Source: a virus
IMG/VR virus record: IMGVR_UViG_3300027754_000468
Coordinates: 1 to 22,619 of that record
DNA: 22,619 bases
Reading direction: 5' to 3' (one strand)
Both the position numbers and the translations under genes were made by a program. This document shows positions 13,031 through 21,572 of the stretch, piece after piece; within the stretch, counting starts at the first letter, position 1; each line of letters begins with the position of its first letter. A model generated the notes under the pieces. The model saw only the letters and a program-made list of their open reading frames with translations. It was not told where the DNA came from and did not search any database.

Positions 13031-14164
13031 ATGGCTCAACAGATTAAAAAGAAATATTTATCAAACGAAGTAATTAGTTATTTCGATGACCAAATTGACG
13101 CAGTAGAATCTGGTCTTTCAAGTGAAGTAACAAGAGCAACCGGTATTGAGGGTGGTTTAAATTCTCGACTAACAACCGCTGAAGGTGAGGTCGATGTTCT
13201 TCAATCAGAGCTAGATGCCGCAGAACTAGCTATTTCTAGTGAAGTGATGCGTGCTACTGGTGCCGAGGGTACATTAAATTCTCGCCTAACAACTGCTGAA
13301 AGCGAAATTGACACTCTTCAATTTGACTTAGATGCTGCTGAATCAGCTATCTCTGGCGAAATTATGAGGGCGACTGGAGTTGAAGGTGGAATCAATTCTA
13401 GATTGGTAACCGCTGAAAGCGAAATTAATGCCCTCCAGTTTGATTTAGATGCTGCCGAAGCTGCTATCTCTGCTGAAGTTATGAGAGCGACCGGAATTGA
13501 GGGATCATTACAATCACAGATTAACAATGTCCTTTCAAATTTAGATGGTGCTGCACTAGATTCATTGACTGAGATCGTGTCAGCTTTTCAAGCTGCTGAT
13601 TCAACTTTGAACGGAGCTATCACAAGCTTAGCATCTTCTGCTTCTTCTGCTTTGAGCACTGAACAGAGTGCCCGTATTGCTGCTGACTCTGCACTTCAAG
13701 GTGAAATTGATGCCGAAGAAGTTGCTCGTGCTGCTGCTGATACTACGCTCCAGAACAACATCAACTCAGAAGCCGCTTCTCGAATTGCACAAGATAGTGT
13801 TCTTAGTGGTCAGATCAGTGCTTTGTCTCTTGATGTAGTAGACCTAGATGGATACGCTCAAGATATTAGAAATGATCTTGATTCTCTCCAGTCTGCTTTT
13901 AACGCTCAAGTTGATGGGCCTTCTTTCAATAAAATGAAAGTTGTTATTGGTGCTGAGCTTGGATTTATTAACCTTGCCCATACAGCAATTGCAAATTCGG
14001 TTGTTGTCTGTGTTGGAAGATTGATGGCACATAAAGATGAAGATTTTACTTTATCCGTTGTTGGTGGAGTTTCTCGTCTTACTTGGATTGGTTCTATGGC
14101 CAACCCAAGTGGTGCGGAGAAGATCGAAGCAGGGGATAATGTTTTTGTAACTTACGCTTACTAA
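13031..14164 (+). CDS. coiled-coil repeat fibre protein
   Basis: 377-residue elongated protein with ribosome site GGAGGG. After a 21-residue N-terminus come about four copies of a 39-residue repeat (from residues 22, 61, 100 and 139; the last is partial), each with LDAAExAIS then EVMRATGxEG, LNSRLTTAES and EIxxLQ. A second series follows: three 18-residue copies at 211-264 of the E-x-x-ARxAADxxLQxxI type, a common trimeric fibre coiled coil. From about 295 a compact beta domain ends the chain (KMKVVIGAELGFINLAHTAI, EAGDNVFVTYAY). This architecture fits a trimeric tail or head fibre with a C-terminal knob. T-ending codon use resembles the coat gene, so expression is probably high. Position before the neck genes leaves open whether it sits on head or tail. 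Confidence 0.8.
   Translation: MAQQIKKKYLSNEVISYFDDQIDAVESGLSSEVTRATGIEGGLNSRLTTAEGEVDVLQSELDAAELAISSEVMRATGAEGTLNSRLTTAESEIDTLQFDLDAAESAISGEIMRATGVEGGINSRLVTAESEINALQFDLDAAEAAISAEVMRATGIEGSLQSQINNVLSNLDGAALDSLTEIVSAFQAADSTLNGAITSLASSASSALSTEQSARIAADSALQGEIDAEEVARAAADTTLQNNINSEAASRIAQDSVLSGQISALSLDVVDLDGYAQDIRNDLDSLQSAFNAQVDGPSFNKMKVVIGAELGFINLAHTAIANSVVVCVGRLMAHKDEDFTLSVVGGVSRLTWIGSMANPSGAEKIEAGDNVFVTYAY
13094..13561 (+). repeat. 117-bp in-frame repeat array in fibre gene
   Basis: Units at 13094-13210, 13211-13327 and 13328-13444 plus a diverged unit from 13445 each encode 39 residues. Protein conservation is higher than DNA identity (many synonymous differences, e.g. CTAGATGCCGCAGAA against TTAGATGCTGCTGAA), so the units are old and kept by selection, not freshly duplicated. 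Confidence 0.8.
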
Positions 14165-15960: not shown

Positions 15961-16755
15961 ATGCTTAAAATATTTAAAGGCTCTAGCGATCTTAGTCTTT
16001 CACTTGAGAATTATATTCTAGACGATGAAACAATTGAGCTTTTAACAACAGAGTCAATTGATGTTGGATACTTTAAACCAATTAACAGTTTATTTATTGA
16101 ACTTACTACTCAGGTCATTGCAAATAAAATAGAACTTGAGTTCTGGAACGGTTCATCATGGTCTATCGTTGAAACAATCGATAAAACGAATGGATTAACA
16201 AGATCGGGATTCATTTCATGGGAGCGAAATCTAGACACACAAACAGAAACGACCCTGCACAGCAAAGCCTTATACTGGTACAGACTCAAAGTTTTAACCA
16301 ATGATATTCCGACTTTAGAATTAAAGGGAATAAATTTGGTTTTTTCTGACGACACTGATTTGAAAAGTGCATACCCTGACGTTATGGAATACCTCCACGA
16401 TGGGCAAACTTCTTTTATTTCTTACCATCAAAGCGCAAGGGATTTTATTATTAACTATCTCAGAAACAAAGGTAAAACTGTTTCTAGGTATGGTGTTTAT
16501 AAAATGCTGGACCAGTTCGATCTTCACAATTACGAAGAAATGAGACAGGCTTCAAGGTACAAAGCTCTGGCCATGATATTTTTTAATGAGTCTGATGCTG
16601 TTGATGACAAATGGTATCAGAAAGCAAAAGATTTTGACCGGCTATATGGCGAAGCAATAAGCATGGACTTTTTGTCAATCGATGCTAACAATGATGGTAA
16701 GGTTGACGAATCTGAAAATCAATCGGTGCAGTTTGTTAAAATAATGAGGCTTTAA
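15961..16755 (+). CDS. putative head-tail connector protein with EF-hand loop
   Basis: 264-residue protein with ribosome site GAGGA. Residues about 40-125 look like a beta sandwich (FIELTTQVIANKIELEFWNG, LYWYRLKV). The C-terminal half is helical and resembles phage neck/adaptor proteins: VMEYLHDGQTSFISYHQSAR, then MRQASRYKALAMIFFNE and WYQKAKDFDRLYGEAISMDF. Residues 241-252 (DANNDGKVDESE) fit the 12-residue EF-hand calcium loop at all ligand positions, D1-N3-D5-G6-V8-E12. It precedes the tail-terminator and tube genes, as connectors do. The connector call is by context and general pattern. Confidence 0.6.
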   Translation: MLKIFKGSSDLSLSLENYILDDETIELLTTESIDVGYFKPINSLFIELTTQVIANKIELEFWNGSSWSIVETIDKTNGLTRSGFISWERNLDTQTETTLHSKALYWYRLKVLTNDIPTLELKGINLVFSDDTDLKSAYPDVMEYLHDGQTSFISYHQSARDFIINYLRNKGKTVSRYGVYKMLDQFDLHNYEEMRQASRYKALAMIFFNESDAVDDKWYQKAKDFDRLYGEAISMDFLSIDANNDGKVDESENQSVQFVKIMRL

Positions 16756-17197: not shown

Positions 17198-18376
17198 ATG
17201 GGATTTGTAGTAAAAGGTAAATCATCGGTTTATTTAACAGAAGAAGTTACCGAGGGAGTTTATGTTGCTCCTGTTGCTGCTGACGCTGTTGAAGTTCTTG
17301 AGGATGGAGTAGGTTTTGAATTTACTCGTGACGAAATAGAAAGAAATTTAACTTCTGCCACAATCGAAATAGAGGCTTCACGTCTCGGATTAAAACAAGT
17401 GTCTGGTTCAATCCCAGTTGAGTTTAAAGCCGGTGCGGCTGAAGGTGCAAAGCCTAGGGAGAATGTTTTATTCAAATCACTCCTAGGTGGAAATAGACAG
17501 ATCGCAACCACTTCAACAACAAAGACTGGAAACACAGCGTCAATACTCCAAATTGAAGATGCAGATATTTCTAAATATAAAAAGAATGATATTATTTTAA
17601 TAAAAGAATCTGGTCGATATGAAGCCAGACCTATTTCACTTGTCGATTCAACAATTGGATTCGCTGAAATTACTTTAGCAATTCCTTTAAGTGCTGCCCC
17701 TTCTGACAACGTTGTGATTGGAAAGTCTGCAATTTATCACCACAAAGATGCTGCACCAACTTTTTCTGCAACTCACTACATCGGTGGAGCAATCAAGGAA
17801 ACAGTTACAGGTTCTAGGGCCATCTCTGCTTCACTTGAATCATGGGAAGGCGGCTCGGTTTCTAGTTTTAATTTTGCAATCGAAGCTCTTGACCTAGATC
17901 AAATTGATGAAACAATTCCACCACTTTTGGCAGCGTCATTTTCTGGCGAAGCATTACCTCCAGTTCTACTAGGGGCTTGTGTTTGGATTAACGGAATAAA
18001 GGTAAAATATAATTCACTTTCATTGAATCTTGAGAATACGAAAGCAGAAATTCTTTCAGCATGTTCTGAGTCTGGGAAGATCGGTTCAAGATTTACTCAA
18101 TTTGTTGCGACAGGCGAAGTTGCTCCGTATATGGATGATGATAACGTTGACAGATTTTCTGCGTTTAACAACAATGATAGCATTTCTGTATTCGGTTATG
18201 CGTCAAACCCTACAAGCGTTGCAGGAGAAATTGAGCAAGTTATTTCTTTTTGGTTCCCACAAGCAAAAATTACAGCTATGCCTAATGGAGATCAAGACGG
18301 GATTATGACTAACAATATTGCCTTCAAAGGCTTCAAAGATGCCGGTGAGGACACAGTATTCCTTGGATTTATTTAA
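17198..18376 (+). CDS. tail tube (major tail) protein
   Basis: 392-residue protein with ribosome site CGGAG, forming the hollow tail tube. Motifs in keeping with the tube family: SVYLTEEVTEGVYVAPVAAD, then GVGFEFTRDEIERNLTSATI, SGSIPVEFKAGA and GFEFTRDEIERN at the N-terminus, later AISASLESWEGG and VWINGIKVKYNSLSLNLENT. It is longer than minimal tubes (about 150-250 residues), and the region between 115 and 180 (ILQIEDADISKYKKNDIILI) looks like an inserted beta domain. Followed by a strong terminator, consistent with extra expression of this gene. No sheath gene follows, so the tail is non-contractile. Confidence 0.85.
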   Translation: MGFVVKGKSSVYLTEEVTEGVYVAPVAADAVEVLEDGVGFEFTRDEIERNLTSATIEIEASRLGLKQVSGSIPVEFKAGAAEGAKPRENVLFKSLLGGNRQIATTSTTKTGNTASILQIEDADISKYKKNDIILIKESGRYEARPISLVDSTIGFAEITLAIPLSAAPSDNVVIGKSAIYHHKDAAPTFSATHYIGGAIKETVTGSRAISASLESWEGGSVSSFNFAIEALDLDQIDETIPPLLAASFSGEALPPVLLGACVWINGIKVKYNSLSLNLENTKAEILSACSESGKIGSRFTQFVATGEVAPYMDDDNVDRFSAFNNNDSISVFGYASNPTSVAGEIEQVISFWFPQAKITAMPNGDQDGIMTNNIAFKGFKDAGEDTVFLGFI

Positions 18377-18416: not shown

Positions 18417-18452
18417 AAGCTCCTCCTTAAAAAAGAGGGGCTTTTTTATTTT
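18417..18452 (+). terminator. Rho-independent terminator after tail tube gene
   Basis: AAGCTCCTC (18417-18425) pairs with GAGGGGCTT (18435-18443) over 9 bp with one G-T pair and a 9-base A-rich loop, followed by TTTTATTTT (18444-18452). A classic intrinsic terminator; it would lower expression of the chaperone, tape measure and distal tail genes relative to tube protein. Confidence 0.9.
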
Positions 18453-18471: not shown

Positions 18472-18687
18472 ATGGATAATGTAAAAACTTTAAAGATCGA
18501 TCCATACCACCACCTAAGGCATTTCTTTGGTGAAAAGTTTTTAATAGTTTCACTGAATCCTATCGAGGGAGCAAGTGAAGCATCTTACGTTATGGGAAAC
18601 GATATTTCTGTTGAGGACATGGCATTTATTTGCAAAATAGTTCAAATGATGGGTGACGAATTTATACAAAACAACATGGGAGTGTAG
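18472..18687 (+). CDS. small hypothetical tail-region protein (71 aa)
   Basis: 71-residue protein starting MDNVKTLKIDPYHHLRHFFG, located 20 bases past the terminator and one base before the likely TTG start of the G protein. No Shine-Dalgarno sequence precedes the ATG; the AT-rich TTATGTTTTATA lies there instead, possibly part of a promoter. Sequence: strand-like FLIVSLNPI, then a helix (DMAFICKIVQMMGDEFI). No family recognised. Position between tube and chaperone genes suggests a tail-assembly link. Confidence 0.55.
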   Translation: MDNVKTLKIDPYHHLRHFFGEKFLIVSLNPIEGASEASYVMGNDISVEDMAFICKIVQMMGDEFIQNNMGV

Positions 18688-18688
18688 G

Positions 18689-19072
18689 TTGAAAATTTTA
18701 AAGAGTACCGATAAAATCAGGATAACAACACAGACAGAAGAACCAATTTCCGTAACGATTAGACCCATGACAGTTTCACAAAAAATTGAAATTGCATCAA
18801 AAGTTAAAATAGTTAAAGGGAACGAAATTCAAGATCATAATGCACAGGCATTGCTTTGCATAAAGTTCTGTTTACTAGAAATTTCAGGTGTTCAGAATTA
18901 CGATGGAACAGGCTATGCGCTTGATTTTGCCGATGGATACTTATCTGATTCTTGCGCTGACGATATTATGAGCTGCCTGTCTGAGGCTTCTTTATTGCTT
19001 CCCGTTGTACTAGGCTCTAATAAGAATATAGGAGCCATTACAGGAGTTTCAATCGAAGTAAACCCAAAGTAA
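18689..19072 (+). CDS. tail assembly chaperone, G-type
   Basis: Cytoplasmic chaperone for tail and tape measure, equivalent to lambda gpG. I chose TTG at 18689 (LKILKSTDKIRITTQ) since GGGAG lies 6 bases before it and it starts just after the previous stop; GTG at 18653 is the alternative and would add 12 residues. The 127-residue product has a beta start (RITTQTEEPISVTIRPMTVS) and helices with a G-type rhythm (NAQALLCIKFCLLEISGV, SDSCADDIMSCLSEASLL). It ends at TAA 19070-19072, directly after the slippery site C CCA AAG, so a fraction of ribosomes should continue as the GT fusion. Between tube and tape measure, this is the standard place. Confidence 0.75.
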   Translation: MKILKSTDKIRITTQTEEPISVTIRPMTVSQKIEIASKVKIVKGNEIQDHNAQALLCIKFCLLEISGVQNYDGTGYALDFADGYLSDSCADDIMSCLSEASLLLPVVLGSNKNIGAITGVSIEVNPK

Positions 19073-19539
19073 TAAGGTCTGCGTTAGATCATATCCTTAA
19101 TGCTATTTCAGAAATTTCAGAAGTCAGCAACGAGGAGTATGTTTATCTTGTTTCGACATACTGGTACAGGGCAGACCAAAATTTCAACTGCTCTAATTGC
19201 AAAAAAATGTATTCCGAAAATGTGAGGGATGGTAGAAAAGCTTGTTTTACGGAAAGAACTAAAGAGATTGTGAATTATAACAATTCTATCAAGTATTTCA
19301 AATGCCCAAGCAATTTCTACAACCCTGCTTATTCTCATATTATAGATTTATTTCGACATTTTCAGAATGGGGCATTACCCTTTAGTGGTGGGTTATTCGA
19401 GCAGCCTTCAAAGATAATTGAGGCTTTCAGAGTTCTTGAATATCTGGACAACGAGCGACTTGCAGATCAATCAAGGAAACAAAAATGGCAGAAGGATCAG
19501 TCCAAGTTGAGCTCTCGATCGATGAACAAAAAGCGTTAA
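18689..19539 (+). CDS. tail assembly chaperone GT, -1 frameshift fusion
   Basis: Predicted product of a -1 shift at 19063-19069. Translation reads the G frame to AAG (19067-19069), slips one base back, then continues GTA (19069-19071), ATA, AGG, TCT and on to the stop at 19537-19539. That adds about 156 residues to the 127 of G (283 total). The T part reads VIRSALDHILNAISEISEVS, then YVYLVSTYWYRADQNF, with CSNCKKM and YFKCP giving possible metal-binding Cys, and ends in a basic tail. Without the shift this 471-base frame has no start or ribosome site at its upstream end, so fusion is the natural way to express it. It overlaps the tape measure start by 55 bases. Equivalent to lambda gpGT. Confidence 0.8.
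19063..19069 (+). promoter_or_regulatory. programmed -1 ribosomal frameshift site
   Basis: CCCAAAG in zero-frame phase C CCA AAG fits the X XXY YYZ rule, and the zero-frame stop TAA follows immediately. The -1 frame is open on both sides, from 19030 at least to 19537. Two AGGAG sequences (19030-19034 region and 19042-19046) lie upstream and could act as Shine-Dalgarno-like stimulators, though the nearer is 16 bases away, longer than in dnaX. Confidence 0.8.
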
Positions 19540-21572
19540 GAGCACTAATAGCACTCACAAAAAAGATTGATGATTTTGGAAACGATGCAGCAAAAGCAAT
19601 CAAAAAATCAGATATTGCACTCGCTACTTTCGCAGGAAACATTGCATCATTAGCAATTTCTAAAGCTATTTCATTAGCAGGCGAAGCTTTTTCTGGAATG
19701 ACAGGGTTTATAAAAGAATCCGTAAATGCAGCAGCCGAATCAGAATCATCATTAGATAGTTTGAAGTTTGCACTAGCTTCCACAGGATTACTAACCGATG
19801 AAAATGTTAAGTCAATGGAGGATTTCGCTGCTCAATTGCAAGAGACAACAGCATTTGAAGACGATGCAGTAATAGCTTCAATGGCATTGCTTCAATCGCT
19901 TGCAAGGCTAGACACCGAAGGATTACAAAGAGCAACAACTGCTGCGGCTGACCTTGCAACGGTTCTAAAAATTGACATTGGAACAGCTTCAAGAATGCTA
20001 GCAAAGGCGGCAGAAGGAAACACTGCTGCTTTAGATAAGCTTGGTCTTGAGTTTAAAAAAGGTTCAACGGATGCTGAAACTTTCGCAAACGTTTTGGATA
20101 CACTTGAAAAAAGATTCGGAGGCGCAGCGCAAGCACAGGCGAAAACATTTGCAGGGGCATTGGCTCAATTGTCAAATCTTTACGGATCACTTCAGGAAAA
20201 TGTTGGTAAGATTATTGTTCAAAACCCTGCCGTAATAGCAGCATTTACCACAATAAAATCCGCAATCACTAAACTGGCTGAGTCAATCTCTAAAATGTTT
20301 GGTAAAAATAATTCTGACGCAGTTGCGGACTTTTTTAGATTAATGCTAGATGGTTCTGCTGCCGTTATATTAACAATGGATGCGGTTGGAAGGATTTTTT
20401 CAGTTGTTGCAGACACTGTAATGGCATCGATTAGAATCATGGCACTAGGAATAGTTACTCCTATCGCAGGGATTTTGGAGGTAATTTCATTAGTTCCAGT
20501 TATCGGAGAAAAATTTAAAGGTGCTGCTGATGTTGCGACCGCTGAAATGCAGAGATTGTCAGGCGCATTTGATAAAAATATTCAAGGAATGTCTGATGCT
20601 TTTAGTGGAGACACGGCATTAAGTAAAATGTCCGATCAAATTGCAGCGGCTCGTGGAGAGTTTGATGTTTTTTATGAAGACGTTAAAAACAAGGGTCCAT
20701 TATTAAAAAATAATTTGGCTCCAGATAAGCCTCCAATAGACCCAGAACTTCTTCAAAAGCAAAAAGAATTTAATGCTGCTTCACTCGATCTTGATAATCA
20801 ATTAATACTGGCCAAAAATGAGCTAGAATTTAATGACGATTTAATGCGACAGGAAAGATTTTTATCTCGCAACGAGGAGCAAATTGCCCAGATAACTTCT
20901 TTTGAATTAACAAAATCGGAACTCGTTTATCAGGCTGCTTTAAATAGTAATGCGTTATTAAAAACTGCCGAAGAAACAAAGCTTGCAAACAAAAAAGCCG
21001 CACAAGAAAAAGAATTAAGAGATTTAAATATTAATCAAAAAGGCAAAGCAGATATTCAGAAAAAAGAAATTTCAGACCAAAATGCATTTTTTAGTGCTGC
21101 AACATCTTTGGCATCGTCTAGCAATAAAGAACTTGCAATGATTGGAAAGGCTGCTGCATTAACACAGCTCGCAATTCAAACTCCCGAAGCGGTAGCGTCA
21201 TCATTTAGATTCGGTTCTGCTACGGGTGGGCCGGTTCTTGGTTTCGCACTCGGAGCAATTGCAGCAACAGCTATGGCAGCACAAGCAGCACGAATAGCAG
21301 GGGTAAAATTTGCAGAAGGTGGTATTGTGGGAGGTTCATCTTTCTCAGGAGACAAAGTTGCAGCAAACGTAAATTCCGGTGAAATGATTCTTAATAGGTC
21401 ACAACAAAAAACGCTTTTCGATATTGCAAATGGTGGAGGAAATGGAGGAATAATGTCAGCCATTGAATCCCTAGGAAACAAAATTCAAAATATGACTATC
21501 GTTGTTCAAGCCGATGGTCGAGAAATAGCAAGGCTCGTAAGAGATCAAAGATTAACGGGGTTTGCAGTATGA
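19485..21572 (+). CDS. tape measure protein
   Basis: Sets tail length and is ejected into the host envelope with DNA. ATG at 19485 has AAGGA upstream and lies inside the end of the T frame. At 695 residues (about 1.5 angstrom per residue in known tails, so roughly 100 nm by inference) it is largely helical. Features: N-terminal VQVELSIDEQKALRALIALT; a conserved-looking block (about 85-235: LKFALASTGLLTDENVKSME, TASRMLAKAAEGNTAALDKL, GGAAQAQAKTFAGALAQLSN) typical of tape measures; hydrophobic segments at about 285-345; coiled coil at 420-530; a Gly/Ala-rich hydrophobic stretch at 580-607 (LGFALGAIAATAMAAQAARI); and the end motif FAEGGIVGG...VNSGEMILNRSQQKTLFD. The last bases overlap the next gene (ATGA). 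Confidence 0.94.
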   Translation: MAEGSVQVELSIDEQKALRALIALTKKIDDFGNDAAKAIKKSDIALATFAGNIASLAISKAISLAGEAFSGMTGFIKESVNAAAESESSLDSLKFALASTGLLTDENVKSMEDFAAQLQETTAFEDDAVIASMALLQSLARLDTEGLQRATTAAADLATVLKIDIGTASRMLAKAAEGNTAALDKLGLEFKKGSTDAETFANVLDTLEKRFGGAAQAQAKTFAGALAQLSNLYGSLQENVGKIIVQNPAVIAAFTTIKSAITKLAESISKMFGKNNSDAVADFFRLMLDGSAAVILTMDAVGRIFSVVADTVMASIRIMALGIVTPIAGILEVISLVPVIGEKFKGAADVATAEMQRLSGAFDKNIQGMSDAFSGDTALSKMSDQIAAARGEFDVFYEDVKNKGPLLKNNLAPDKPPIDPELLQKQKEFNAASLDLDNQLILAKNELEFNDDLMRQERFLSRNEEQIAQITSFELTKSELVYQAALNSNALLKTAEETKLANKKAAQEKELRDLNINQKGKADIQKKEISDQNAFFSAATSLASSSNKELAMIGKAAALTQLAIQTPEAVASSFRFGSATGGPVLGFALGAIAATAMAAQAARIAGVKFAEGGIVGGSSFSGDKVAANVNSGEMILNRSQQKTLFDIANGGGNGGIMSAIESLGNKIQNMTIVVQADGREIARLVRDQRLTGFAV

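Follow-up and report, generated by a model that had tools for sequence, protein, structure and literature searches.

A predicted −1 ribosomal frameshift in an uncatalogued family of probable phage tail assembly chaperones

The DNA analysed, called the window throughout, is the 22,619-base virus record IMGVR_UViG_3300027754_000468. Its tail region carries, between the tube and the tape measure genes, a pair of overlapping reading frames termed G and T. The features of this region are the following.

17198–18376, plus strand: tail tube protein (Pfam Phage_tube_2, E 2e-9; phrog_290).
18422–18450, plus strand: terminator-like hairpin with a T run, between the tube and chaperone genes.
18472–18687, plus strand: 71-aa open reading frame between the tube gene and G.
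18689–19072, plus strand: G, probable 0-frame tail assembly chaperone, an open reading frame of 127 aa with a TTG start, ending at TAA TAA.
19058–19077, plus strand: 20-nt block without differences among the window and relatives L002 and L031; no other identical run in the G–T alignment is as long.
19063–19069, plus strand: predicted slippery heptamer C_CCA_AAG for −1 frameshifting, kept in phase in relatives.
19069–19539, plus strand: T, predicted −1 frame extension of 156 aa plus stop, with a four-cysteine (Cys4) signature, an LPFxGG..QP motif, and a codon-position and pN/pS signal.
19207–19539, plus strand: 110-aa orphan open reading frame expected from a gene caller, which lacks the invariant C41 and C44 of T.
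19485–21572, plus strand: tape measure protein (PHROGs tape measure, E 3e-17), sharing its first 55 nt with the end of T.

The placement of a chaperone pair between tube and tape measure, first proposed from the sequence alone, is borne out by the Pfam and PHROGs matches of the two flanking genes, with the 71-aa frame and the hairpin also lying between tube and G. The 71-aa frame is present in relative L002 and absent in L027. The hairpin recurs in this position in L002, L026, L027 and L031 and could lower the level of chaperone mRNA relative to tube mRNA. Upstream of this region, the protein encoded at 13031–14164 contains near-identical repeats of about 33 residues (of the SEVTRATGIEGGLNSRLTTAE type) and is probably a tail or fibre protein; the C-terminal part of the frame at 15961–16755 includes the stretch DANNDGKVDE, which weakly resembles an EF hand (Pfam E 0.0066, short of the cut-off). 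No tRNA genes were found in the window.

The TTG at 18689 is taken as the start of G, being aligned with the ATG of L002; the upstream GTG at 18653 was rejected on this ground. The last codons of the G frame read GTA AAC CCA AAG TAA TAA, so that a full X XXY YYZ heptamer, CCCAAAG in the phase C CCA AAG, abuts the tandem stops, just as the sequence-only reading had described; it is the sole CCCAAAG in the window. The −1 frame is open across 19024–19539, from before the site to the end of T, and its earliest ATG, GTG or TTG is found only at 19207, 46 codons in, which also agrees with that reading. Slippage at C_CCA_AAG is predicted to yield a fusion with the junction VNPK-VIRSALDH, and translation through the slip gives the 283 residues announced for it (127 + 156). 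In-phase XXXYYYZ heptamers occur at 58 of the 5912 in-gene codon positions of the window, and the site stands beyond chance because, among these 58, only the overlapping AAACCCA at 19060 and CCCAAAG at 19063 lead into a −1 frame that stays open for at least 60 codons.

Relatives were collected with T as a query, alone and then as an alignment, and with the tube protein as a second bait independent of T. Annotated phages gave no match to a nucleotide search, nor to a protein search with the G and tube proteins of the window. The loci covering both the site and the T frame number 37, on 32 contigs, many of which are near-identical, and represent about 17 lineages. An in-phase X XXY YYZ heptamer is present at the start of T in all 37, and none of them displays the opposite pattern, in which the downstream frame is kept and the heptamer lost, that had been named as the observation speaking against a frameshift. 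The relatives found with the tube bait, which were sampled without bias as regards T, likewise keep the heptamer wherever they reach the site.

Comparison of related phages, suggested at the outset as a check, reveals that the heptamer is kept in phase at the T start while its letters change. CCCAAAG is shared by the window, L002, L031 and L027–L029; L026 has CCCAAAA overlapping AAAAAAA; AAAAAAA occupies the site in L006 and L007. The remaining heptamers are AAAAAAC (P24 type, Marinomonas and others, many of these loci sharing the heptamer by descent and hence not being independent) and GGGAAAC (Rhizobium phage L338C); CCCAAAAAAA is likewise among the relatives' sites. Five heptamers at one homologous site amount to a natural experiment on the slippery sequences that phages accept. 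At the nucleotide level, the longest identical run over the 851 bases compared between the window and L002 and L031, the two relatives matching it most closely, consists of the 20 bases around the site, GTAAACCCAAAGTAATAAGG; the next two identical runs fall within the overlap of T with the tape measure gene, which codes for two proteins.

The distance from the heptamer to the G stop is 0–2 codons in most loci and ranges from 0 to 32 codons. The G stop lies 4 codons downstream of the heptamer in L038, about 20 in L007 and 32 in L035, and the heptamer is still found where T homology begins. As judged from these alignments, the position of the heptamer is tied to the T start and not to the G stop. 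A frameshift site predicts this arrangement, whereas a motif that fell close to a stop codon by chance does not.

The T frame itself bears the marks of a protein. It contains cysteines C41, C44, C59 and C79, which form the Cys4 signature, and C41 and C44 do not vary among the 15 T sequences aligned. Between the window and L002, 27 of the 47 substitutions in T codons 1–46 fall on third positions, and pN is 0.22 against a pS of 0.82, a value close to saturation that makes the pN/pS ratio only indicative. These patterns indicate that, from the slip site on, the −1 frame is under constraint at the protein level.

Together, the heptamer conserved in relatives and the protein-level constraint on the −1 frame support the original proposal of a canonical −1 frameshift joining G and T, and a programmed −1 ribosomal frameshift of the lambda type, predicted from sequence, almost certainly makes G and GT here. 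Most ribosomes would translate G (127 aa) and terminate at TAA TAA. In a minority of them, tRNA-Pro on CCA and tRNA-Lys on AAG would each shift back by one base to pair with CCC AAA, and these slipped ribosomes would continue into T to produce GT, a fusion of 283 aa. If lambda and HK97 are a guide, G and GT would then coat the tape measure protein, the T part recruiting tube subunits, and the G:GT ratio would set tail assembly. Lambda G and GT are present in a ratio of about 30:1 and attach to the tape measure, with T serving to recruit the tube subunit (reviewed in PMC5009743). The same review describes C_CCA_AAG as highly shift-prone in E. coli, whose tRNA-Lys set may not be that of the host of this virus. 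In another tail chaperone cluster, the measured frameshift efficiency is 7% (PMC3711429). As to stimulatory elements, none was convincing in the window, where the z for downstream folding at 80 nt is about −1.9 and the SD-like AGGAG is located 16 nt upstream. AGG-type purines are found about 10 nt upstream of the site in four relatives, and downstream structures or upstream SD-like stimulators are suggestive in some of them.

Separate translation of T is one alternative, with initiation either at Met 19207 or, by coupling, at a non-standard start codon close to the stop of G. An open reading frame from ATG 19207 does exist, and a TTG occurs at T codon 8–9 in L002, L026, L027 and L031. The window, however, offers no start before T codon 47, and initiation at Met 19207 would drop C41 and C44. 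Moreover, T of the P24 type is devoid of ATG, GTG and TTG before codon 90 of its 101, and the conserved in-phase heptamer would be left unexplained. Because starts are absent in the P24 type, C41 and C44 would be lost, and codons 1–46 are constrained, independent initiation of T is considered very improbable.

Formation of the fusion by transcriptional instead of ribosomal slippage has in its favour the runs of A7–A9 at the site in L006 (2986–2994) and L026 (2687–2696). The window site, on the other hand, contains only CCC and AAA, and runs of this length are too short for slippage by RNA polymerase. Across relatives, the letters vary and the pattern that permits re-pairing of two tRNAs is kept, so that slippage during transcription is scarcely credible. 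The idea that the two frames reflect a sequencing or assembly frameshift within one gene has a negligible probability and is refuted by independent records: contigs of independent samples and the isolate genomes of P24, L338C and Marinomonas have this frame break at this place.

The ribosomal frameshift can be compared with several known systems. The locus shares with lambda gpG/gpGT the order tube, G, T, tape measure, a T read in the −1 frame, and a heptamer close to where G ends. The lambda slippery heptamer is GGGAAAG and thus differs from the CCCAAAG of the window. With hhalign, G has a weak 24-column match to lambda gpG (probability 2.4) and T has no detectable homology to lambda T (probability 0.1), on which basis T was rejected as a homologue of lambda T; the pair thus appears to share no sequence homology with lambda gpG and T. 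HK97 gp13/gp14 is similarly an annotated −1 frameshift chaperone pair, with a putative terminator separating the tube gene from the chaperone gene, but a sequence comparison of the window proteins with the HK97 PHROG family gave no match. Alteromonas phage P24 (MK241539.2) contains an unannotated G/T pair whose T is homologous (29% over 86 aa) and lies in the −1 frame, with A_AAA_AAC directly before the G stop. Its heptamer is unlike that of the window, and its T is shorter (101 aa).

The profile search against tail chaperone families that had been envisaged as a check did not succeed: G and T have no match in Pfam, PHROGs or NCBIfam, whereas lambda and HK97 controls do match their own families. 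Against PDB sequences, the G profile found matches at chance level only. The identity of G was approached through its AlphaFold2 model (pLDDT 92.4), of which the top PDB match is 2ob9, the HK97 tail assembly chaperone gp13, at a weak Foldseek E of 0.33. VIA-align also ranks 2ob9 first, again weakly (Z 5.2, rmsd 4.3, 85 residues). In a viral structure library, many of the matches that bear a name are called tail assembly chaperone or tape measure chaperone. Each match is statistically weak, and G is likely to be a tail assembly chaperone because Foldseek, VIA-align and gene position agree. For T, the model is of low quality (pLDDT 71); viral structures gave nothing with an E below 2.8, and PDB alignments were weak (Z up to 2.8) and uninformative.

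A known recoding mechanism, an ordinary case of the lambda G/GT kind, is thus well supported in an uncatalogued family, and extends a textbook event to proteins absent from Pfam, PHROGs and NCBIfam. By sequence comparison, what is new is the family itself, the Cys4 signature in T and the turnover of the heptamer. A more specific proposal is tentative and has somewhat less than an even chance of being right: in this uncatalogued tail chaperone family, the four-cysteine, possibly metal-binding, module of T would recruit tube subunits, and the heptamer would have undergone several replacements without leaving the T boundary.

The expectation that annotation truncates or misses T holds for deposited genomes. 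In the P24 record (L003:4929–5267), no annotated gene covers the T frame, and in that of Rhizobium phage L338C the T open reading frame begins at an internal ATG.
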